From positions 1,116,001 to 1,180,000 of the forward strand of contig NZ_CP007141.1 of NCBI RefSeq assembly GCF_000816145.1: DNA of 64,000 bases, read 5' to 3'. Under the pieces are notes generated by a model. That model was given only the letters and a program-made list of their open reading frames with translations, searched no databases and was not told the DNA's origin. The DNA is from Pseudothermotoga hypogea DSM 11164 = NBRC 106472 (lineage in GTDB: Bacteria > Thermotogota > Thermotogae > Thermotogales > DSM-5069). Each line of letters begins with the position of its first letter. Within the stretch, counting starts at the first letter, position 1. Shown here piece by piece: positions 18,832 to 32,850 of this stretch. A program made the translations under genes and the position numbers.

Positions 18832-21800
18832 GTTTCCATTCCTCATAGATTCGATCGAAACCCATCCGCTTTACGAAGTAATTCAAAGTGCCACTGATGT
18901 TTCCATTCCTCATAGATTCGATTGAACATGTATACCAGTTTACATACCCGTAATATAGGAACCGGTTTCCATTCCTCATAGATTCGATTGAACGAGAATC
19001 GTGTTCGCGTTATTACAAAGTCGATCCTCGGGTTTCCATTCCTCATAGATTCGATTGAACTCAGTCGTTCTATACCACGAATCTATCAATTCTTGCGAGG
19101 TTTCCATTCCTCATAGATTCGATTGAACTGGATTGTCACTCTACTCACACGTCCCAGCGGTGTTAGTTTCCATTCCTCATAGATTCGATTGAACGAGGTG
19201 TACCACAGCTTTAAAGTTTTCTTCGTCACAGGTTTCCATTCCTCATAGATTCGATTGAACTATGCCCGAAGACATCATCACACCCCCTTAAAAGGGGTTT
19301 CCATTCCTCATAGATTCGATTGAACAGCTTTGAGACATCGCCTTTCAAAAAGAAGTCCCAAGTTTCCATTCCTCATAGATTCGATTGAACCCGATTCCCC
19401 AGTTGTATGCAAGAACTGCGAGGATAGTTTCCATTCCTCATAGATTCGATTGAACACCACACTCCCTTCAGGTGCGTTGTCGGGTGTGAGAGGTTTCCAT
19501 TCCTCATAGATTCGATTGAACTAACCACAAGAAGCGTTTACGTGCCCACTAACCTATGTTTCCATTCCTCATAGATTCGATTGAACTCTTCGTGAAGGAA
19601 AACGCGCTCATTTGAACTCGGCGTTTCCATTCCTCATAGATTCGATTGAACGCGTCCGCGATATTCGAGAGCATCGCCTCGGAAACAGTTTCCATTCCTC
19701 ATAGATTCGATTGAACATCACCGCGTGAAGTAACTCGTGAAAGAGGGTTTGGGTTTCCATTCCTCATAGATTCGATTGAACAAGTGATAAGAACCGAACT
19801 CGACGAAGATGGAAGAACGGTTTCCATTCCTCATAGATTCGATTGAACGGTGAGAAGCTGGGAGTATTTCGTGAGGAGGGAAAGCAGTTTCCATTCCTCA
19901 TAGATTCGATTGAACGTCGTGTGACCGCCTCTATCAGTGTCGCGGATATCAGTTTCCATTCCTCATAGATTCGATTGAACTTGAAGTGAGCGTGGGAGTT
20001 TGCCCATCATTGTAAGGTGTTTCCATTCCTCATAGATTCGATTGAACGAGTATCCTGATCTTGAGTTCTGGAAAGAATTCTTGTTTCCATTCCTCATAGA
20101 TTCGATTGAACTCGTAAATGGTATGGTGGAGTACTTGCGCCAAATGGGTTTCCATTCCTCATAGATTCGATTGAACTTGTAGCTTCGTTCGTCTTCACAA
20201 AAGATGTGGCATGAGTTTCCATTCCTCATAGATTCGATTGAACCAGGTCGCAAATCGTCATACGCCAGACTAACCCTGGTTTCCATTCCTCATAGATTCG
20301 ATTGAACTTTCTAACCTTTCTACTTTTTCTACTCTCTTAAGAGGTTTCCATTCCTCATAGATTCGATTGAACTCCTTTGCACTTAAATATTTGAATCTGC
20401 GGTGAAAAGTTTCCATTCCTCATAGATTCGATTGAACGCTATCACTTCCTTTCCTCACGACTACACGTTCTCTCGTTTCCATTCCTCATAGATTCGATTG
20501 AACTGGAACCCTCGTTCTTTCATTATCTCGACCAATCGTGTTTCCATTCCTCATAGATTCGATTGAACGAGAACCGGCACACGTTCGGGCAACAACGGAT
20601 ACAAGTTTCCATTCCTCATAGATTCGATTGAACCCGATAGCGTTTTGAGATACGAGGTCAACTGATCCGAGTTTCCATTCCTCATAGATTCGATTGAACG
20701 AGTACGAGCAAAAGCACAATGAAGGCTTTGTGAACGGTTTCCATTCCTCATAGATTCGATTGAACTATTTGGACGGAGGGATAGGCATGCCAAAACAAAA
20801 CTAGTTTCCATTCCTCATAGATTCGATTGAACTTGAAGAGTTTTTGAATGAGCTGGAGATGTGGTATCCAGTTTCCATTCCTCATAGATTCGATTGAACA
20901 TGAGAAATTCGCCTTCGCTCGGTTCGTTAGATATGGTTTCCATTCCTCATAGATTCGATTGAACGAATACGATCCTGCAAAGCACAAGATAAACGTCCTC
21001 GGTTTCCATTCCTCATAGATTCGATTGAACTTCCTCTCTTTCAAGCTCGTCAACATTGCTACCTTGTTTCCATTCCTCATAGATTCGATTGAACCGAGAT
21101 ATGTACAAAATGATGAACACCGTCGAATTCCGGTTTCCATTCCTCATAGATTCGATTGAACTCGCTCCGCTTCCGATGCGCATTCGCTCGCGTACGCGTT
21201 TCCATTCCTCATAGATTCGATTGAACTTTGCTCCAGCTCTTCAAAACTTGTCGCTTGCGAAAGTTTCCATTCCTCATAGATTCGATTGAACTCAAACCGC
21301 TTACAAAGCTCAATCGGAATATCATAAGTTTCCATTCCTCATAGATTCGATTGAACAAATATCTATGGCCCTGAGAGCGTCTTCCTCAGGAAGTTTCCAT
21401 TCCTCATAGATTCGATTGAACCAAGAATGAAGCTTGTCGACAGGAGCCAACTACCGAGTTTCCATTCCTCATAGATTCGATTGAACATCTTGAGCAACGA
21501 ACTGGAATGTGATTTCGTAAGCTGTTTCCATTCCTCATAGATTCGATTGAACTTCAATTAAGAGAAAAAGGACTTTCCTGGCGAAGAATGTTTCCATTCC
21601 TCATAGATTCGATTGAACATATTCAGCTTCTGGTTCTCTTTTTCCACCACCACAGTTTCCATTCCTCATAGATTCGATTGAACTGAAACGACACAAAATC
21701 AACATCCTCACACGGTGCGGTTTCCATTCCTCATAGATTCGATTGAACACGTCTCCGATATCTACGTGGGAGATTCTATTCAACTGTTTCCATTCCTCAT

Positions 21801-23908
21801 AGATTCGATTGAACGTGTTCGCGGAATAGTTAGATAGCGAGATGTTTCCGTTTCCATTCCTCATAGATTCGATTGAACTATTCAAGCTGCTTCTTATATT
21901 CCTCTGTGTCAACTCGTTTCCATTCCTCATAGATTCGATTGAACGGAGGGGGAACATGAAAGTCTCTTTAGAAACGTTGGAGTTTCCATTCCTCATAGAT
22001 TCGATTGAACATGATCGCGAACACGTCCTGAAGCAAAGGAAAGTCCTGTTTCCATTCCTCATAGATTCGATTGAACCCCGCAGTTCCGTCGTCGGGAGTG
22101 ATCGTTAGGCCTTGTTTCCATTCCTCATAGATTCGATTGAACCGTATTTGGGTCTATTTCAAGGATCTGTGTAGCATTAGTTTCCATTCCTCATAGATTC
22201 GATTGAACTTTTAGCAAACTGTTCGAGCACGCGCGTTAGTCCGAGTTTCCATTCCTCATAGATTCGATTGAACATTTCAAGGATCTGTGTAGCATGAGAA
22301 GGAATGGCAGTTTCCATTCCTCATAGATTCGATTGAACGTCTCCCCCACCACGTTCCACGAACACGTCTAAATCGGTTTCCATTCCTCATAGATTCGATT
22401 GAACTGGACAACAGCTAAGGAACCCGTTCTCCAGCGCAGTGTTTCCATTCCTCATAGATTCGATTGAACGATCACCATAGAGAGTGGACTCGAGCTTTTC
22501 AACTGGTTTCCATTCCTCATAGATTCGATTGAACTTCCGTTGCTTGAAGATGTTTTCGCAATCATCTCAAGTTTCCATTCCTCATAGATTCGATTGAACT
22601 CTCGTAAAAATAGGCATCTTTACTGCACAGGAACAAGTTTCCATTCCTCATAGATTCGATTGAACTTTCAAAGCCCGCATCAAAGCGGGCTTTTCTTTTG
22701 TTGTTTCCATTCCTCATAGATTCGATTGAACATTTCAAGGATCTGTGTAGCATGAGAAGGAATGGCAGTTTCCATTCCTCATAGATTCGATTGAACCGTA
22801 TATTCCCAGCCGTAGACGGTACCGATTCTGGAAGTTTCCATTCCTCATAGATTCGATTGAACCGGAACTGCCAAGTGGGTTGGTGGAGTTTTAGCTCCGT
22901 TTCCATTCCTCATAGATTCGATTGAACCTTATCCGCGGCGGTGTAATCCACGTGTCCTCGCCCGGTTTCCATTCCTCATAGATTCGATTGAACCCTTCAC
23001 TTCCTGCCATGTTGCTTTGAGTTTATTTTGTTTCCATTCCTCATAGATTCGATTGAACTTGGGATCCGGAAGCGAAGTCTCCGGCAGGAGCAATGTTTCC
23101 ATTCCTCATAGATTCGATTGAACTAGTGCATAGTGCATACTTTCCACGGGATAACTATTGTTTCCATTCCTCATAGATTCGATTGAACGTGTTATTTGGC
23201 TGAACACGAACAACGTATCCGCGAGTTTCCATTCCTCATAGATTCGATTGAACCAAGCGTCGGCGAACTCATTAACACATACGTTGCTGGTTTCCATTCC
23301 TCATAGATTCGATTGAACTTAATCTGCTCGATATTTGCTTGTATTTTCTCGGGTGGTTTCCATTCCTCATAGATTCGATTGAACCGGGTTTAAGGAACTG
23401 TACAGGTGGCTGAACGGAAAGTTTCCATTCCTCATAGATTCGATTGAACTTAGAGAGGGGGAGAAAGTATGAGGAGTTTCAAGATGTTTCCATTCCTCAT
23501 AGATTCGATTGAACGGCATACAGCGGAGATACGGAACTGTGTAATATGCTTGTTTCCATTCCTCATAGATTCGATTGAACAACATTTTTGAATGCGAAGG
23601 AAATCTACACAAGAGAGTTTCCATTCCTCATAGATTCGATTGAACGAAACGAGCCGGTAGCGGTTGCGTACAAGAGAGAGCTGTTTCCATTCCTCATAGA
23701 TTCGATTGAACTCTTTTCGGCAATAAGAAGCGGAGTGGTTGATTTTTGTTTCCATTCCTCATAGATTCGATTGAACCGTTTAGATAGCCGATTAGCTCTG
23801 AACCTTTCTCCTTAGTTTCCATTCCTCATAGATTCGATTGAACTAAGAAAGTTGTAGACACAGCAACCGAGACGTGGATGTTTCCATTCCTCATAGATTC
23901 GATTGAAC
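18832..23908 (-). CRISPR. CRISPR array, 78 repeats and 77 spacers (type I-B)
   Basis: Direct repeats of 29 bp begin GTTTCCATTC and end CGATTGAAC on the plus strand. The complement ends in GGAAAC, the usual 3' handle end, so transcription is leftward. Spacers are 36-38 nt. Repeat starts run from 18832 and 18899 to 23815 and 23880 (hand count). All repeats look identical except the leftmost (18832-18861), which is 30 nt and ends GATCGAAAC; a degenerate end repeat marks the leader-distal, oldest end. The spacers at 22274-22309 and 22732-22767 are identical, and the one at 22143-22179 shares 22 nt with them. One spacer (22666-22702) contains a hairpin terminator. The adjacent cas operon is type I-B. 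Confidence 0.99.
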
Positions 23909-24342: not shown

Positions 24343-26580
24343 TCAGAACATGAGTACGGATGAACTTCTCTGGAATCCTGTTTGGTCGTTATACCAATGC
24401 GATAGATTGTCCCTTGTCACGACGACGAAACCGTTTTCAACTATCAGCGCCGATGTGAGTTCCTCTCGGCTCATTCGAACGTCTATGGTGTACAGAGCCA
24501 TCTTCTGAAGTATTCTCTTTATCGATGACAGTTTGTCGAATTTTCCAAGACCGTGATCTTTGTTCATTATCGAGTTGAGCTCTTCCCTGAGCTGAACTGC
24601 GAAGTCATCGTACTCGACATAGACTGGTACCGATTGGGCTCCATCTTCGATGAGATGAAAGTTGGAGATCTCTTCGAATTTTAGCGTTTTGAAACTATTG
24701 ATGAGATTTTTCTTGTCGGTGTTACCTCGATTATCAACTTTCTGAAAGTATTCTTGAACCAGATCAGAGAATTCTCTTTCCTCACAGACTTGCCGATTTG
24801 ACGTAACCTCCTTGGTGATACCCAATAGCATGGAATCGTACACATAGGAGGCCAGGCTTCTTTTGTTTTCGCTTTTTTTCACGACGTAGACATTAACTTC
24901 CCCCATTCGATTCTCGAAGTGTCTGTTACATCGTCCAGCTGCTTGTATGATGCTGTCAAGTGGAGCGTCGTCTCTGATCACCTTGTCAAAAGATATATCC
25001 ACACCAGCTTCGATAACCTGGGTGCTCACACAAATCAAAGGTCCCCGATCAATCTGCTTCATTCTCCTTAACCTCTCCAATCTCTGTTTCGGTATGACAT
25101 TCGATGATAAGTAGAACAATTGGTCGAATTTGAACCGTTTCAGGACGTACTCGAAGATCTCCCTCGAGTGCTTTATTGTATTTAGAATGATGAGCAGTTT
25201 CTGCCCGAGCCTCAAAGCTTCTTTCACATTTTCTTCTACAACATCAAAGAATTCTTCGTACCCCACCTCTCCATGAAAGTGTATTCTTGTACGATTGAGA
25301 TCAACACCGTAGTTTTCTTTCACTATGCTCGTGGCGTTCTTCAATAGAGCCGGTCGAGTCGCTGTAGACAGAATCACAACACTACCGAACTCCGTGAGCT
25401 CGGATAGTATTCGGGAGATTGGTTCCCAATATTTGTGAGGTATCGATTGAACTTCGTCCAGGATGATTACTGAGTTCAAAAGTTTGTAAAAGAAGGGAAT
25501 TCGTCTATTCGTGAACAACGATTCAAAGAGCGATACGAACGTCGTGATCACCATCTGTGTGTGCCAGCATTCTACTATTACACGTTGTATCGATGATTGT
25601 TCGTACTCTCTGCTTGAAAACAAAGGATCCGCCAGATGGTGGTAAGGTAAAAGTACAGTGGCATCGTGGTCAACACCGTCGAGTATCTTGTACATCAATT
25701 CCATTGTCTGGTCTATTATGTTTATGAAAGGCAGCGCGTAAACAATTAAGGTGTCTTTTTTCGCAAGAGAAAGGGCGACCTTTATATTTGCCAAGGTCTT
25801 ACCTAAACCTGTTGGGGCGGTTATTGAAAGAATTTTGCTATCGATTCTACTCAGCGATCGATCTATCTCCTCGTGGAATCTCTGACGCAATGAGTACATG
25901 GGATTATCCTTTGCTATATTCCTGATGTAACCTTGAACGAGATCCAACGTGATCTTTGGTTCTATTTCTACGATCATATCCTTGAGTGCGGCATCCTCTT
26001 TGTCGGAACTGACCAAAATGGAAATCAGTGTGTGCAACAGTATGTAGTCTTTCATCGTGAAATCTGTAAAGAAACTGAGTTTCGAAATCTGACTTTGAAC
26101 TTTTCTGCATATCGCCTTGACATCAAAATTCATCAAATTCGTGCCTGTTTCTTTCTCAAACCACTCAATAAGGCTTGGAGGAACGGAGCGAAATTGTTTC
26201 TCAAGCTCGCTCGGATTTTCTTCTACAAATCCGAAATTCGGGAGATGACCATGGTGGTATCTGACAGCGAAATAACCAAAGACCGCAAGTTTGGACTCAA
26301 ATCCATTACCCAGTAGAGTTTGATACGTCACTAAAGAGGAAAGGGGGGCATGCGTCGTATGCCCCCTGCCCGGATGCAGAATATAATTTTGAAATTCGTT
26401 CGATGCCTTCCCAAAGTCATGACATAGCGCACAAAGTTGAACCAATCGAACAGCGCTCTCTTTGTTGATTCCAAATGGTTCCCATCGAATCAATTCAGCT
26501 TTCTTAGTGGCTCTTTCAGCCGTACCAATGAGATGATCTAACAAGAGTCTATCTGGGTGAGACTTCAGTCTATCCAGCAT
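24343..26580 (-). CDS. cas3: CRISPR nuclease-helicase Cas3
   Basis: Recruited by Cascade to unwind and degrade target DNA. The 745-aa protein fuses an HD nuclease domain (CHDFGK at residues 53-58 and a THAPLSS segment) to a superfamily 2 helicase with Walker A APTGLGKT (255-262), a DEVQ box near 375, STATRP, and motif VI AAGRCNRH. It is the last cas gene before the leader, starting with a 16-bp overlap into cas5. All nuclease and helicase motifs look intact, so interference is probably functional. Confidence 0.96.
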   Translation of the reverse strand: MLDRLKSHPDRLLLDHLIGTAERATKKAELIRWEPFGINKESAVRLVQLCALCHDFGKASNEFQNYILHPGRGHTTHAPLSSLVTYQTLLGNGFESKLAVFGYFAVRYHHGHLPNFGFVEENPSELEKQFRSVPPSLIEWFEKETGTNLMNFDVKAICRKVQSQISKLSFFTDFTMKDYILLHTLISILVSSDKEDAALKDMIVEIEPKITLDLVQGYIRNIAKDNPMYSLRQRFHEEIDRSLSRIDSKILSITAPTGLGKTLANIKVALSLAKKDTLIVYALPFINIIDQTMELMYKILDGVDHDATVLLPYHHLADPLFSSREYEQSSIQRVIVECWHTQMVITTFVSLFESLFTNRRIPFFYKLLNSVIILDEVQSIPHKYWEPISRILSELTEFGSVVILSTATRPALLKNATSIVKENYGVDLNRTRIHFHGEVGYEEFFDVVEENVKEALRLGQKLLIILNTIKHSREIFEYVLKRFKFDQLFYLSSNVIPKQRLERLRRMKQIDRGPLICVSTQVIEAGVDISFDKVIRDDAPLDSIIQAAGRCNRHFENRMGEVNVYVVKKSENKRSLASYVYDSMLLGITKEVTSNRQVCEEREFSDLVQEYFQKVDNRGNTDKKNLINSFKTLKFEEISNFHLIEDGAQSVPVYVEYDDFAVQLREELNSIMNKDHGLGKFDKLSSIKRILQKMALYTIDVRMSREELTSALIVENGFVVVTRDNLSHWYNDQTGFQRSSSVLMF

Positions 26581-27263
26581 ATGTTTTCGCCCAGCTCCTT
26601 TATCCTGTAGACTTGCTCAACGTAATGTACCAGCTTTATGGGTGTTGCGTTCTTCTCGACCCAGTAAGAGGCAAAAGCCGTGGGTGTTCGTTCATTGTCC
26701 ATGTTCAACGTCATTCGTTCCTTGATGAACAATTGTCCCTTTTGTGGAAATATTTTTGTGCCATCCAAGACCTTTATCACAGTGTGCACTTCCAACGGGG
26801 TGGATACAGGCTCAGCGTCGAAAGAACCCACGTAGCTGAAGTTCGCTATCATTTGTGCTTGACCAAGGTAGGGTGTGAAAACGCTGATCTTGTTCTTCAG
26901 GCAGTATTGGAGCTCTTCGTATTTACCGAACTCCGAAACATATATTCTGTAAGCTGGGTTTTTGATCAACTCCAAGACTATCTGAATTCTCGCGTGTTTC
27001 TGGCCACTCTTTGTTTCAACGTAATTCGTCGCTATGTTGATCTTCTTGATCGGATTCAACAGCTTTACAGCAAAGTGCGCATCATCGAAAGTCCTCAGAT
27101 GTTCACTGCTCTCGGTAGTATCGTTTTGTATGCCAAGTATGGCTCCCAGAAGACCGCATATCGCAGTTCTGGGGGGGAAGGAATACGAAGTCGAGCTGGT
27201 CGTTGTGTAGCTTCTTCTGAAGAGAGCGTATTTTCCGAAAACGTCAAAAACTAAAACTTTCAT
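26565..27263 (-). CDS. cas5: Cascade subunit Cas5 (type I-B)
   Basis: RAMP-fold protein that binds the 5' handle of crRNA and caps the Cas7 filament. The N-terminus MKVLVFDVFGKYALFRRSY and the SFPPRTAICGLLGAILG motif are typical of Cas5 of the Cas5h/Tneap type. Length 232 aa. ATG 27263 overlaps the cas7 stop (ATGA). Processing of pre-crRNA is left to the separate Cas6 in this operon. Confidence 0.95.
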   Translation of the reverse strand: MKVLVFDVFGKYALFRRSYTTTSSTSYSFPPRTAICGLLGAILGIQNDTTESSEHLRTFDDAHFAVKLLNPIKKINIATNYVETKSGQKHARIQIVLELIKNPAYRIYVSEFGKYEELQYCLKNKISVFTPYLGQAQMIANFSYVGSFDAEPVSTPLEVHTVIKVLDGTKIFPQKGQLFIKERMTLNMDNERTPTAFASYWVEKNATPIKLVHYVEQVYRIKELGENICWID

Positions 27264-28144
27264 GGCAAATTCACTACCTCAATGTTCATCCTTTCGAGTA
27301 CCTCGTTGATTTTTACTGGTGCATTGTTCTTCAACACTGTGAGTCGGTCGCTCTGTTTCAGTTCGACCCTTTTTATTAGGTCCTTGCTTTGATCAAGTTT
27401 TTCTAAGAGTTTGTCAATTTTCAATTGAATTTCCGAGATATCTCTGATGCTCTTTTCATCGACGCTGCTTTGAATCTCCAAGTAAGAGTCAAGTTCACCG
27501 ATATGGTATTTCACATTTTCTTTGTAAACCACTCTCATCAGAAGGCGTGGGTTGTGTTCCATTTTTGAACGTGTGATGAGATTCTTTGTCCCGTCCCAAA
27601 TGGCCTTGAGGAGTTTTTGAAGGTCTTCCTCGGTCGCGTTTGTGATTTTTGCTGCGGTTTCGTTCGCAACACCGTAGAAAGCTATAAGTGCGTAGGGTAT
27701 CAGATACTCTTCTCTGAAACTTCTCTGTTGTGCCTGATCCTGGCTCGTGAACGCTGCCGTGCCCTGTTGGAATACCACCTTGACTGCGTGAAGTGATGTA
27801 CCTGGCCTGAACTGCACTGGACCAGTGTAGGACGTGTCGGCCTGTTTCGATATCGGAATCACTGCGCCAAACAATCTGACGTCCAGACATTTCAACGCGT
27901 CCTCTTTCTTTTCGATCTTAAGCTCTTCACGACGCTTATCAGGGCTCACCGCCTCACCAGATACCCAAATTGTCTCTCCCCATGACAACCATTCGTCCCT
28001 TATTGTTCTTTTGAGTCTGACATCAGTTACGATGCATCTTTCCGTTTCTTCGTCAATCCGTGGTTTGTTCTCGTCGAGTGGGTCTCCGTTTGGATTCGCC
28101 CATTTCACATCGTACAAGAAGAGAATTTCAGACCTATTGTTCAT
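27260..28144 (-). CDS. cas7: Cascade backbone subunit Cas7 (Csh2)
   Basis: Forms the helical backbone that holds the crRNA spacer. The 294-aa protein begins MNNRSEILFLYDVKWANPNG, and the PNGDP element with DENKPRIDEETERCIVTDVR is the hallmark of the Csh2/Cst2-type Cas7 family. ATG 28144 is the start, with GAGGTGGAG upstream; a longer open frame would begin inside cas8b. The gene overlaps the cas8b stop by 11 bp and cas5 by 4 bp. Confidence 0.95.
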   Translation of the reverse strand: MNNRSEILFLYDVKWANPNGDPLDENKPRIDEETERCIVTDVRLKRTIRDEWLSWGETIWVSGEAVSPDKRREELKIEKKEDALKCLDVRLFGAVIPISKQADTSYTGPVQFRPGTSLHAVKVVFQQGTAAFTSQDQAQQRSFREEYLIPYALIAFYGVANETAAKITNATEEDLQKLLKAIWDGTKNLITRSKMEHNPRLLMRVVYKENVKYHIGELDSYLEIQSSVDEKSIRDISEIQLKIDKLLEKLDQSKDLIKRVELKQSDRLTVLKNNAPVKINEVLERMNIEVVNLP

Positions 28145-28541
28145 TCTGCTCCACCTCCTCGACTTCGATCTTGAAAGGTTCCTTGTTCGAGTAAGCCAAC
28201 CCAAGGGTGAAAACGAAGTTCAGTTCATCGATCGTGATGTTTTTTTCTCCAGCCGACAAGTAGTACTCCGCCGCAACCTTCATGATAAGATCAGTCCTTT
28301 GCCCGTAACTTTTGTACTGCTCAAGCTTGTTTCGGATTTCTGGCAGAAGACCTTGAACATCCCGCATGTTCATCTTCAGTCCCTTAAGTTTGTTGAAGAA
28401 CGGTGCTGCTTGTCTTTTCGCGTACTGAACCGCTAAGACTTTCCCTGCGAGCACCCCTGTCAAGAAAACTGCCTTTTTCCAAGGTTCATTGAAAAATTCC
28501 GGGTACCTTTGGAAGAACTCGCTCACTTCGCTACTAACCAC
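28134..28541 (-). CDS. cas11b: Internal in-frame small subunit Cas11b within cas8b
   Basis: Inside cas8b, AAAGGAGGGT (complement of 28548-28557) is followed after 8 nt by GTG at 28541-28539, in frame at codon 446. Translation from there gives a 135-aa helical protein (starting VVSSEVSEFFQRYPEF) that ends with the cas8b stop. Independent translation of a small subunit from within cas8 is established for several type I systems, including I-B. Here the ribosome site is as strong as those of the true genes around it. The product itself is inferred. Confidence 0.75.
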   Translation of the reverse strand: MVSSEVSEFFQRYPEFFNEPWKKAVFLTGVLAGKVLAVQYAKRQAAPFFNKLKGLKMNMRDVQGLLPEIRNKLEQYKSYGQRTDLIMKVAAEYYLSAGEKNITIDELNFVFTLGLAYSNKEPFKIEVEEVEQNEQ

Positions 28542-29876
28542 TGATTCACCCTCCTTTCTCAGATGGAAAACCTCTATTTGGCTTAGAAACAAAACAGCTG
28601 CAAAGCTCAGATAAGTCAGCGTACGCCAGTGAAAATTCCTTGTCTGCTTTGAATCTATTTCTTGTACAGCCTTTCTGATTTTTCGCATACAGTACCACAG
28701 GAATCTTTGCAGGTTGTAACTCTCACCGTGAAAGATCGATCTAATTAACTGAAGGTAATCTTTTCTCGCTTCACTCTTTGATGTTGGTTTCTCGTACAAG
28801 TCCCACAACAAGCCGAGAGTCGGTTCAGGCACATTTTCAACAGCAATCCTCTTCGCAGCTTCTTTTCTTTCGGTGACCAGTTTTCTAAGTCTTGTGGGAG
28901 AGACCTCTGTCAGATGCAACTCTATTCTCTGCTGGTTCTTGTTTATTTCCATGAAGAGAAAGTCATAATGAACGAATGGATCTTCGTCGGCAAGAGCTTC
29001 TTCGATTTCTTCCTCATTCCTGGCGAAGTCTTTCAATGTCTTGGAGTTTTCCTTCACTCTTTCTATCACGCGACTCAGAATCGAGTCGTTTTTGTGCATC
29101 AATGAAGGTATCAACCAGATGGTCCTCCCAAGAAAGTTGAACGTGAGGTCTCTGGTCACGATGTTTGCCCCGTTCTGCAGATCTGTTTTACATTCCTCGC
29201 AGATCGGCAGGACTTTTACAGCCCCCTCGATCTTCAAGCTTGGGGAGAATCCTGGTTTATCGAACGTTGCGAATTTGAAGACTTCGTTGACAGTCGCGGA
29301 AACAAGTCTGGATTTGCCACAAAAATGGCACGTACCTTGAACCCCTGTGCTCGTTGCCTTCTCGAGCGCCCTTTTTATGAAGACCTCCTTGAAGGGTTCG
29401 TATTCGGCAGGCATCATTTCCTGACCATTTTTTATCAAGATTATGGTCAAGTAAGTGCCTTTTTCTTCCATAGTCATGAGTTGTTTTTCTAAGTCTTCGA
29501 CTATCTGCAAATGATTCTTTTCAAAAAGCTTGACAAAATCTCTCAAGACCTCCTCGTCCTCGAAGAACCTTCTGAACTTTCGCAAGGCTTTCTCAATGGC
29601 TTCTTTTATTTTTTCCAGACTCTTGCCGCTCACGGTCAAGTTCACTGTAGGTGATTTCCCTGACACTTGTCCCAGCTGGTCGGTGTAAAGCAACAGATGT
29701 GCTTGGTCTGGTCCTGGTGTCTCGAGCGCCACAACACCTTTGTACTCTAACGGTTCTAAGCTGACGAGTAAAGCCAATCCCTTGTCCTGCTTCACTGCCT
29801 TTGTAAAGTTTCGATAATACTCTGACTGCCTCATCAAACGTCCAATCTCAATAACCTTTGTCAACACATGTTTCAC
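28134..29876 (-). CDS. cas8b: Cascade large subunit Cas8b (Csh1)
   Basis: Large subunit that recognises the PAM and recruits Cas3. The 580-aa protein is of the TM1802/Csh1 type with a zinc-finger pair CHFCGK (Cys183, Cys186) and CEEC (Cys226, Cys229). The C-terminal 135 residues are helical, like the Cas11 small subunit, and an internal start precedes them. It lies 6 nt after cas2 and overlaps cas7. Confidence 0.93.
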   Translation of the reverse strand: MKHVLTKVIEIGRLMRQSEYYRNFTKAVKQDKGLALLVSLEPLEYKGVVALETPGPDQAHLLLYTDQLGQVSGKSPTVNLTVSGKSLEKIKEAIEKALRKFRRFFEDEEVLRDFVKLFEKNHLQIVEDLEKQLMTMEEKGTYLTIILIKNGQEMMPAEYEPFKEVFIKRALEKATSTGVQGTCHFCGKSRLVSATVNEVFKFATFDKPGFSPSLKIEGAVKVLPICEECKTDLQNGANIVTRDLTFNFLGRTIWLIPSLMHKNDSILSRVIERVKENSKTLKDFARNEEEIEEALADEDPFVHYDFLFMEINKNQQRIELHLTEVSPTRLRKLVTERKEAAKRIAVENVPEPTLGLLWDLYEKPTSKSEARKDYLQLIRSIFHGESYNLQRFLWYCMRKIRKAVQEIDSKQTRNFHWRTLTYLSFAAVLFLSQIEVFHLRKEGESVVSSEVSEFFQRYPEFFNEPWKKAVFLTGVLAGKVLAVQYAKRQAAPFFNKLKGLKMNMRDVQGLLPEIRNKLEQYKSYGQRTDLIMKVAAEYYLSAGEKNITIDELNFVFTLGLAYSNKEPFKIEVEEVEQNEQ

Positions 29877-29882
29877 CCCCTA

Positions 29883-30146
29883 TCAGTACATGAAGCTGGT
29901 TGAGCCCTTTTCTTGACCAAGTACTTCGACTGTGACCAGAGTCTTGTCACTAATGATGTAGAATCTGACAGAATCTCTCGATCTTTCAATGTTTTCCTGA
30001 AGCTCTAATTTCAGTTTCTCGAATTTAGCTTGTGTTATCTCTCCTTCAAAAACGGAGTTTTGAACCCAGTTCAGATATTTTCTACATACTTTTAAGATCT
30101 TTCCGACGCGTTCCTGCTCGATGTCGTACGTGACTATCACGTACAT
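29883..30146 (-). CDS. cas2: CRISPR adaptation protein Cas2
   Basis: Small ferredoxin-fold protein that bridges two Cas1 dimers in the spacer-integration complex. The 87-aa product starts MYVIVTYDIEQERVGKILK with the conserved Asp in YDI, and ends in the usual beta strands (RFYIISDKTLVTVEVLG). ATG 30146 with GGGGAT upstream is preferred over a start nine codons earlier. It sits between cas1 and cas8b; 73 bp without a gene separate it from cas1. Confidence 0.96.
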   Translation of the reverse strand: MYVIVTYDIEQERVGKILKVCRKYLNWVQNSVFEGEITQAKFEKLKLELQENIERSRDSVRFYIISDKTLVTVEVLGQEKGSTSFMY

Positions 30147-30219
30147 GGTTATCCCCAATAGTTGTGTCCACACTTAACTGACGGATCAATCTTAGGATTT
30201 TCGACACCCAACTCTCTGC

Positions 30220-31203
30220 TCACCCGAGATATGGCTCGTATTCCTCATCTTCCAAGATGTGTTTTTCGATTTTGTAGGCTTCCATCCTGATCAGTGAACG
30301 ATAAGAAACCTGTCTCTTCAGCTTTGCATGGTGGATGGTGTCTTGAAGTCTTTCTTCAAACGTCTGAACCAAGAGTTTTTTCGCACTCTCTTTCATGGAT
30401 ATGCCGCCGGCTATTTGATGGAAATCTGTTGGTTTGATCTGCTTTCTGTTGACGAGTGTGAGTATCATTCTGTCCACGAGAACAGGTTTGAAGATCTCAG
30501 CTATGTCGAGATTCAAGGTGAATCTTCTGTTGTTGGTACTGTGCAAATAGCCGATCCTTGGGTCCAAGTGAGTCCTGTATATCTGTGACAAGACCGTGGT
30601 GTAGAGTAAGCTGTTCGCGAAGCTCATGAGTGCATTCAGCTCGTTCTCTGGTGGTCTCTTGGTTCGAGAGCCAAATTGAAAATGCTCTGATTTTATCATT
30701 CGGTCAAAACAACTGTAGTAGATCTCGCGTGCGTTACCTTCGAGAGCCATCAACTGATTCACTTCTGAGCACAGAATCAGATTTTCAACGTGATTTCTTA
30801 TACTTTGAATTCTTTCAGCAAACTGATCGTCATCGTTGTACTTCTTCAAGGTGTTGATGATGTTACACAGTGCGCCTTTGACGAACATCCTTGCGAGCAA
30901 AAGTCGCTTCTCGCTGTTAAGGTAGTGTTCGGCCTGTTTGAGTATCACAAGGCCTGAGTTGAGAAATTCCCTTGGATAATAGCTTCCAACGTAGTAGCCG
31001 AAATGATTGAAAAAGTGAACTATTATCTGTTTCTCGGTCAAAAACTCCAGCAGTCTTTTGTTCAAATCGACTTCGGAAAAGATGTTAATCTCTGAAACGT
31101 TTTCTACTGGTATATGTCTTTTTCCATCCTTGGTTTCAAGTAAGATGGTGTTTTCCTTGCGCTTCAGAATACCATCTGAAAAAATGTATATCGGTTCTGC
31201 CAT
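30220..31203 (-). CDS. cas1: CRISPR integrase Cas1
   Basis: Metal-dependent integrase that inserts new spacers next to the leader. The 327-aa protein has the catalytic Glu in LEGNAREIYY (about 155-164), the His in GYLHSTNNRRFTLNLDIAEI (about 220) and the Asp/Glu in that same stretch, as in the Cas1b subtype of type I-B. It follows cas4 by 9 nt and precedes cas2. Confidence 0.97.
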   Translation of the reverse strand: MAEPIYIFSDGILKRKENTILLETKDGKRHIPVENVSEINIFSEVDLNKRLLEFLTEKQIIVHFFNHFGYYVGSYYPREFLNSGLVILKQAEHYLNSEKRLLLARMFVKGALCNIINTLKKYNDDDQFAERIQSIRNHVENLILCSEVNQLMALEGNAREIYYSCFDRMIKSEHFQFGSRTKRPPENELNALMSFANSLLYTTVLSQIYRTHLDPRIGYLHSTNNRRFTLNLDIAEIFKPVLVDRMILTLVNRKQIKPTDFHQIAGGISMKESAKKLLVQTFEERLQDTIHHAKLKRQVSYRSLIRMEAYKIEKHILEDEEYEPYLG

Positions 31204-31212
31204 AGGATCACC

Positions 31213-31713
31213 TCAAGACCAGCAGAATTCTTGATAACCGCACTTGGAACAAAAGGATGACCGTCTCCGCTGAGGGGGTTTCGGTAAAGAAATTATCTCT
31301 TCTGCCTTCTTGATAGCTTCATTCAGTTCCGTTGACGATTGCTCATCAAGTACGACTGTTATTTGCTTTTTCTCCTTGGGGATGAGTATCTTCCCGACAG
31401 CCTGGACCCCTCTCTTTTTAATTTCCGACAGATAGTAGAGCAGCTGGACTCGAGCACCCTTAAGGAACTTTGAGGATTTTTTGATCTCACCGACCACAAC
31501 CATTTCCCCTTGCTCATAGATCATGTCGATCTTGATGCCCGGCAGGGATATTTCTCTGATTCGATTGTTCTTGTAACTCTCTGTGTGTATCAGTCTTCCT
31601 ATTTCTATGAAAGGGTTGTACTGGTCTGGTTCTATCTGGTGAGCTATCAACCACGCTTCTCTCTCACACACAGTTGAACTCAGCAAAACTGTGCCCGTGA
31701 TCGTGTGGTTCAC
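31213..31713 (-). CDS. cas4: CRISPR adaptation exonuclease Cas4
   Basis: RecB-like nuclease with an Fe-S cluster that trims prespacers and fixes PAM-side orientation. The 166-aa protein has an N-terminal Cys (TVCEREAW, residue 16), nuclease residues in GIKIDMIYE and VVVGEIKKSSK, QLLYYL, and the three C-terminal cysteines in SFCSKCGYQEFC. GTG 31713 overlaps the cas6 stop (GTGA). The Cas4-Cas1-Cas2 order is typical of I-B. Confidence 0.95.
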   Translation of the reverse strand: MNHTITGTVLLSSTVCEREAWLIAHQIEPDQYNPFIEIGRLIHTESYKNNRIREISLPGIKIDMIYEQGEMVVVGEIKKSSKFLKGARVQLLYYLSEIKKRGVQAVGKILIPKEKKQITVVLDEQSSTELNEAIKKAEEIISLPKPPQRRRSSFCSKCGYQEFCWS

Positions 31714-32492
31714 CCCCGATTGATTTCAAAAATTTTCTTGAGCGGTACTTCAGAAACCATAGGTGCTACCATTCCGAATCCAAGGCTGTTTCTTTCGCCG
31801 AACCCTACTTCGTAACCAAGCTTTATCAATCTACTATCACCCCTCACCTTGAATGGAAAGACTGCGCCCTTTATCTTTATGCCTCGTATATCTATGAGCT
31901 TTGTGATCCTGTTACGTCTTTTTATGTAATCCCAGTCAGGTTCTATCGTGATCGAAGCATCGATCGCTTCTCCGTAAAAGGCCTCATATTTCTTGATCAA
32001 ATTCTTATTGAGCACTTGTTCAAACTGCTCATCGCTTGGCAAAAGGTATTTGTGATACAATTTGCCGTTTCGTTCAATGGGAACACTCACCACGAGCGGG
32101 GAGAGCATGAAGAATTCTGCGTACCCTTCGAAGCTTGGCTCCTGCAAAAGATTGATCTGTTCGATCGGAAAAACTGTGCCCTCAATTTCTATCTGTGGAA
32201 CTTGTATGAGAGACGAGAAGAAGTTCGTGATGAACTCCTCACTCACCGACGATATGTACCATCTCCCCATCGCAGGCCATATCAAGAGTGAATCAAATCT
32301 CACGGCCGACCTTTCAAAAAACAGTTGTGAGAACGTGAAAAGCTTGAATCCTTTATATCCCTTCTCGTGTAAGAAAGATTCGAAATCACGATCAACATGC
32401 ATCAACCTTTTGTAGACAAAGGAACAAAGCTGGTAATGATAGTTTATGGGAATGGAACAGGTGTAAGTCCTGAACACGATTTCTAACCTCAC
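31710..32492 (-). CDS. cas6: CRISPR pre-crRNA endoribonuclease Cas6
   Basis: Cleaves the repeat to release crRNAs with an 8-nt 5' handle. The 260-aa RAMP protein has the C-terminal glycine-rich loop GYEVGFGERNSLGFGMV and an N-terminal VRLEIVFRTYTCSIPINYHY region in which a His could be catalytic. GTG 32492 with GGGGGG 6 nt upstream is preferred over a TTG six codons earlier. It is the first gene of the operon. Confidence 0.92.
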   Translation of the reverse strand: MRLEIVFRTYTCSIPINYHYQLCSFVYKRLMHVDRDFESFLHEKGYKGFKLFTFSQLFFERSAVRFDSLLIWPAMGRWYISSVSEEFITNFFSSLIQVPQIEIEGTVFPIEQINLLQEPSFEGYAEFFMLSPLVVSVPIERNGKLYHKYLLPSDEQFEQVLNKNLIKKYEAFYGEAIDASITIEPDWDYIKRRNRITKLIDIRGIKIKGAVFPFKVRGDSRLIKLGYEVGFGERNSLGFGMVAPMVSEVPLKKIFEINRG

Positions 32493-32850
32493 GTCAGGCC
32501 CCCCATTCAAAACTTTACAGGATACATTCAGACATAAATTTCACCTGAACTATTTCCTTCGTTATAATAACATACGAGGCTTATCATGAGTCGCGGTTGA
32601 GTGTGATCGTAGTGAACGCACCAGATCAAGGTCATGACTGATCGTTTCGTTCATAAACTTACCCGTGAACGTGTAAAAATGGGTTGAACATGCTTAAAGG
32701 GTTGGTAATCTGAGCAAATGATACAATTAGAAAACGGTTTGGAGTGTTGTTGCTTTTCTTTGCTAAAGTGTGATGGTCAGCCCAAGACTGCGTTTTGTTT
32801 TTGTCGGACGTTCTTCACGAACATTTGAAACGAGTGAAGGAGTGTTGCGT
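32493..32850. promoter_or_regulatory. Divergent intergenic region, cas operon and GGDEF gene
   Basis: 358 bp without a gene between leftward cas6 and the rightward GGDEF gene. Rightward, TTTCAC (32539-32544), 18 bp, TATAAT (32563-32568) could be a promoter with a long leader; a TACAAT at 32722-32727 is another possible -10. Leftward, the same AT-rich block at 32561-32570 reads TTATTATAAC and may serve the cas operon. No clear operator or structured RNA is seen. Confidence 0.4.

Follow-up and report, generated by a model that had tools for sequence, protein, structure and literature searches.

The 3′ quarter of cas8b in the type I-B operon of Pseudothermotoga hypogea very probably constitutes a nested, in-frame cas11b gene, from whose internal start the small subunit of the complex would be made. 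We consider this reading, drawn from sequence and structure prediction, well supported because the internal initiation signal is conserved, the segment is predicted to be a helical fold behind a linker, one lineage carries it as a split gene and no other cas11 was found. An earlier note on this DNA had proposed a cas11 hidden inside cas8b, and each of its computable checks (conservation of the internal start in related cas8b genes, the fold compared with known Cas11 and the lack of a separate cas11) gave a result in favour of that proposal. Positions refer to the window, the whole stretch of 64,000 nucleotides that was analysed, unless indicated otherwise.

A complete type I-B operon with no separate cas11

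The cas genes, identified by profile except for cas4, which was assigned by position, are arranged in the order cas6-(cas4)-cas1-cas2-cas8b-cas7-cas5-cas3, followed by a CRISPR array of 78 repeats:

31710..32510, minus strand: cas6 (TIGR01877, 2e-43)
31213..31713, minus strand: probable cas4, by position and a C-terminal cysteine cluster
30220..31203, minus strand: cas1b (TIGR03641, 9e-133)
29883..30173, minus strand: cas2 (PF09827, 3e-25)
28134..29876, minus strand: cas8b (TM1802/Csh1; TIGR02556, 6e-81; PF09484, 2e-111)
27260..28144, minus strand: cas7 (Csh2; TIGR02590, 3e-97)
26565..27263, minus strand: cas5b (TIGR02592, 8e-42)
24343..26580, minus strand: cas3 (HD and helicase; TIGR01587, TIGR01596)
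18832..23908, no strand assigned: CRISPR array, 78 repeats of 29 nt (GTTTCCATTCCTCATAGATTCGATTGAAC), period 64-68

The operon is complete but for a separate cas11. The cas7 ATG at 28144 overlaps the stop shared by cas8b and cas11b, with the cas7 Shine-Dalgarno (SD) sequence GAGGAGGTG at 28160-28152, and since the genes overlap from cas8b to cas3 there is no room for an additional one. If the small subunit were encoded at another place in the genome, there would be parallels in types I-A and I-E and in a split I-B lineage (see below), all of which use separate genes. We nevertheless regard this as the least probable of all explanations, a negligible one, given the lack of free space in the operon and the fact that, with all 2.17 Mb of the genome searched by profile, the sole cas11-like match was the segment inside cas8b. 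The absence of a separate cas11, which the earlier note had claimed for the operon, thus extends to the genome as judged by profile search. A second weak TIGR02556 match (genome positions 312500-312826) was rejected as a chance zinc-ribbon match because the ORF that it overlaps is thymidine kinase-like.

In the CRISPR array, an identical repeat-spacer-repeat unit occurs twice, at 22245-22338 and 22703-22796, 458 nt apart, which suggests an internal duplication within the array.

An internal Shine-Dalgarno sequence and start codon in cas8b

Large subunit and small-subunit segment form one open frame of 581 codons without an internal stop, and the segment has no ORF of its own; a nested cas11b of this kind is missed by annotation pipelines. 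The relevant elements are:

28134..28541, minus strand: putative cas11b segment encoding 135 aa, in frame within the 3′ end of cas8b
28539..28541, minus strand: GTG as candidate internal start (codon 446 in the longest ORF, 443 in the likelier Cas8b)
28548..28557, minus strand: internal SD sequence AAAGGAGGGT, duplex energy -15.1

The numbering of the internal codon depends on where cas8b itself begins. The first possible start, GTG 29876, has no SD, while GTG 29867 is preceded by its own SD GGGGGTG (-11.5 kcal/mol), the start region reading GGGGGTGAAACAT-GTG. Since the first GTG lies inside the apparent SD of the second, Cas8b probably comprises 577 aa, with the internal start at codon 443, and GTG 29867 is the likely real start. 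The prediction of a near-perfect SD placed 8 nt before an in-frame GTG at codon 446 was right for the ORF starting at 29876. On the minus strand, 28557-28539 reads AAAGGAGGGTGAATCAGTG, in which the GTG (28541-28539) is in frame with cas8b, the SD stretch ahead of it is AAAGGAGG, and 8 nt separate the last G of GGAGG from the GTG. Translation from this codon would proceed over 135 codons to the TAG at 28136-28134 and yield a product of 15.66 kDa; the length of 135 residues stated in the earlier note was correct.

The strength of the site was assessed by scoring the pairing to the anti-SD ACCUCCUUUC ahead of each in-frame ATG, GTG or TTG well inside long ORFs. With a background composed of the window and twenty 20-kb samples (464 kb, about 21% of the genome, 257 long ORFs), the cas8b site at -15.1 ranked first among 6436 internal in-frame start codons. 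This top rank alone is weak evidence, because synonymous-codon permutation of cas8b, which kept the protein and codon usage, produced -15.1 or better in 11.4% of trials; when the internal start codon was also kept, an equal SD energy was obtained in 4% of trials. Such energies are frequent in the permutations because Arg-Lys-Glu-Gly codons are SD-like anyway. Local RNA folding showed an average structure at the internal start for cas8b, with no special openness.

An alternative is that the segment serves solely as C-terminal domain of Cas8b, in a Cascade without free small subunits, and that the SD-like sequence arose by chance or acts as a ribosome pause. The permutation result in cas8b alone (P = 0.11) is compatible with this, as is the inactivity of the corresponding Thermotoga maritima site in E. 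coli. We consider it very improbable, however, in view of the conservation of SD plus start across species, of the stand-alone cas11 genes in a sister lineage and of the T. maritima Cascade, for which Cas11 had to be supplied separately (PMC13199841). The initiation signal at 28541 is therefore best read as a candidate start of Cas11b, being both the strongest of the 6436 sampled and conserved in relatives.

Conservation of the internal signal among relatives

Homologues were collected throughout the Thermotogota and from GTDB genomes searched with the Cas11-segment alignment. The latter contributed sequences from Aminicenantes, Aquificales, Nitrospirae, Candidatus Loosdrechtia (Planctomycetes), Thermodesulfobacterium, Acididesulfobacter, a gammaproteobacterial MAG and Methanosarcinales archaea, while a scan of viral contigs found no relatives. 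The nearest named relative over the Cas11 segment is an uncultured Pseudothermotoga MAG (68% identical).

In 41 of the 45 fused cas8b genes, the strongest internal SD/start of the gene falls in one and the same window of the alignment, whereas 12.7% would be expected there from the density of start codons; relatedness was left uncorrected and a few near-duplicate loci are included, so that the figure is usable as a proportion and not as a binomial P. Three of the four misses are archaeal loci with only a weak signal. In the fourth, from Aquificaceae, a stronger chance site occurs elsewhere, yet a signal is kept at the expected place. The internal start codon may be ATG, GTG or TTG, and the SD core is found in each of the three codon phases (21, 14 and 7 loci). 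Consistently, the peptides encoded over SD and start vary widely (RKEGES-V, KKEEVS-M, REVKGD-V, QGGAK-M, KGGED-M and SGEVE-M). The place of the SD is thus constant while its phase and the encoded residues change, which points to selection on the RNA signal rather than on the protein. We regard this cross-species conservation, as read from the alignments, as decisive; it is independent of the encoded residues and answers positively whether the internal site is kept in related cas8b genes.

Two loci, L026 (G059, same genus) and L041 (G086), carry frame shifts or stops in the N-terminal part of cas8b while the cas11b segment and its SD/start are intact; the breaks may reflect either decay or sequencing error.

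Predicted structure of the nested segment

The Cas11 segment was modelled as the 134 residues after the start, with 19 sequences. The model is an all-helical bundle of seven helices and no strands (pLDDT 88.9, pTM 0.85), in line with the helical product anticipated from the sequence. Foldseek returned no significant match with this model. When Foldseek-ranked chains were aligned with VIA-align, the best six were all type I-C Cas8c (Z 5.9-4.3, the next, unrelated row scoring 3.6), with alignments of up to 106 residues at 3.2-4.9 Å, all running through the C-terminal part of Cas8c. This part is identical to Cas11c (PMC7684278). For the full-length Cas8b model (pLDDT 84), Z reaches 16 against Cas8c; in the same search, residues 448-568 of the model align with a separate chain, of 112 residues, in a type I-C Cascade (Z 6.8), probably Cas11c as judged by its length and the entry title. 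The comparison with known Cas11 folds suggested in the earlier note therefore leads to Cas8c C-termini and to this chain, with structural Z-scores for the segment (4.3-6.8, all below 8) that are moderate, helical bundles being easily matched. The type I-B structure 8H67 was absent among the matches listed for the Cas11 segment alone. By sequence, the PDB gave nothing for full-length Cas8b and only chance matches for the Cas11 profile.

Ahead of the bundle, the model of the 577-aa form places a coil between helices 413-430 and 447-454:

28530..28577, minus strand: predicted linker between two domains of Cas8b (coil with a pLDDT dip; residues 431-446 in the 577-aa form)

Both the SD and the internal GTG fall within this predicted linker, which would explain why an SD is tolerated there in any frame.

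A linker predicted to be flexible could also be a target of proteolysis, in which case Cas11b would be cut from Cas8b and the SD-like stretch would be incidental. In Clostridium thermocellum and Methanococcus maripaludis, small pieces of Cas8b were indeed first interpreted as fragmentation, as cited in PMC11899642. Proteolysis, however, would give no reason for an SD in three phases and a start codon to be maintained at a single site. In Haloferax, the product disappeared when the internal Met was mutated (PMC11899642), and split relatives possess a full separate gene for the segment. Cleavage thus appears highly unlikely as the source of Cas11b, and translation from the internal GTG is the reading that we retain.

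Split cas8b and cas11b genes in Thermotogota

Six Thermotogota loci, L035-L040 (G002, G010, G012, G047, G049, G006), have a large subunit that ends at the point of the internal start, and an independent ORF with an SD of its own encodes the segment (134-161 aa). In five of them the start of cas11b overlaps the cas8b stop (ATGA), preceded by GGAGGT in four cases and GGGGGT in one; in the sixth it lies 25 nt downstream. No SD/start comparable to that of the fused genes was detected near the end of the large-subunit part in the split loci. A seventh candidate, cut by a contig end, is outside this count, and an apparent split in G076 was rejected, as it reflects a contig end and not a split of the gene.

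In a tree of the large-subunit part, all split forms group in one clade (support 100/100), and two genomes, G010 and G012, carry both fused and split type I-B loci. Evenly balanced, in our judgement, is the proposal that cas8b underwent fission or fusion in Thermotogota exactly at the internal cas11 start, leaving a split clade, nested genes in the others and some genomes with both. If so, the split clade could tell whether the C-terminal domain of Cas8b, as opposed to free Cas11 copies, is dispensable. That this clade is new is judged only from a limited search of the literature, and the PADLOC profile PDLC01518 already captures the small gene.

This profile, of 134 positions, is labelled as a Cas8b large subunit. 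In L035 and L036 it aligns over its full length with the stand-alone small subunit (E about 1e-54), and for this reason looks mislabelled.

Proposed synthesis and role of Cas11b

Full-length Cas8b would be translated from GTG 29867, while other ribosomes would enter or re-initiate at the strong SD in the linker, start at GTG 28541 and make the 135-aa Cas11b. The higher predicted strength of the internal SD (-15.1, compared to -11.5 for that of Cas8b) would fit a need for more Cas11b than Cas8b. The belly of the type I-B Cascade would then be built from several free Cas11b copies aligned with the C-terminal domain of a single Cas8b, to which they are identical, and would hold the non-target DNA strand in the R-loop, as in the Synechocystis complex (PMC11096372). 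In this scheme we infer actual initiation at 28541, as well as the copy number and function of Cas11b and its need for interference.

Such an arrangement would be a clear case of one gene lying inside another, with an SD occurring in three phases and in several phyla, placed in a tolerant linker, and with the same point serving as a gene boundary in one lineage. It also implies that, when a cas8b of this group is recoded or expressed in a foreign host, production of Cas11b must be checked.

Comparison with known systems

Internal translation of Cas11 has been found in types I-D, I-B and I-C, and McBride 2020, according to PMC9123187 and PMC7684278, reported it for about 23% of CRISPR-Cas systems. 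Internal Cas11b translation in Haloferax has been shown by mutation of the internal Met (PMC11899642), and an internal Cas11 start has already been proposed for T. maritima cas8b1 (PMC13199841, 2026). As internal Cas11 translation is thus published for the Cas8b family, the P. hypogea case is not a discovery of a new kind; what it adds is the strength of the site, the three-phase conservation and the split clade. It resembles Cas11b, Cas11c and Cas11d of types I-B, I-C and I-D in that the large-subunit gene would also be read from an in-frame start in its 3′ part and the predicted helical product would equal the C-terminus of the large subunit (PMC7684278; PMC9123187; PMC11899642). We see no mechanistic difference from them, only organism and signal strength being different.

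A close parallel is T. maritima I-B1 Cas8b1/Cas11 (TM1802), with an orthologous gene, an aligned internal start and Cas11 segments about 46% identical (L021). We recognised the locus L021/L022 as T. maritima-type by mass: with TTG at the aligned site, the calculated masses of Cas8b and Cas11 are 62.70 and 15.08 kDa, compared to published values of 62.7 and 15.1 kDa (PMC13199841). In E. coli, no Cas11 could be detected from the T. maritima internal site, which consists of AAAGGGGGG and TTG, and Cas11 therefore had to be expressed separately for reconstitution (PMC13199841). A good SD thus does not guarantee use, at least in E. coli. Unlike T. maritima, P. hypogea combines AAAGGAGGGT with GTG, a stronger predicted signal, and its site is a better candidate for obtaining Cas11b from the native gene.

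The earlier note goes slightly too far in stating that type I-B complexes need the small subunit. This statement agrees with the importance of Cas11b for effective interference in Haloferax, but both the Haloferax and the Synechocystis Cascade assemble without a small subunit (PMC11899642). T. maritima Cas8b, for its part, did not co-purify without Cas11 (PMC13199841).

The type I-B Cascade of Synechocystis PCC 6714 (PDB 8H67) contains three free copies of Cas11b (PMC11096372) and has an internal ribosome-binding site, as is predicted for our case. The two large subunits differ in type, Cmx8/Myxan in Synechocystis and Csh1/TM1802 in P. hypogea, and the fold match of 8H67 with the full-length Cas8b model is weak (304 residues, Z 4.3). 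Type I-C Cas8c (Z 16) appears to be a much nearer structural neighbour of the Csh1/TM1802-type model (28137-29867) than the Synechocystis protein is.
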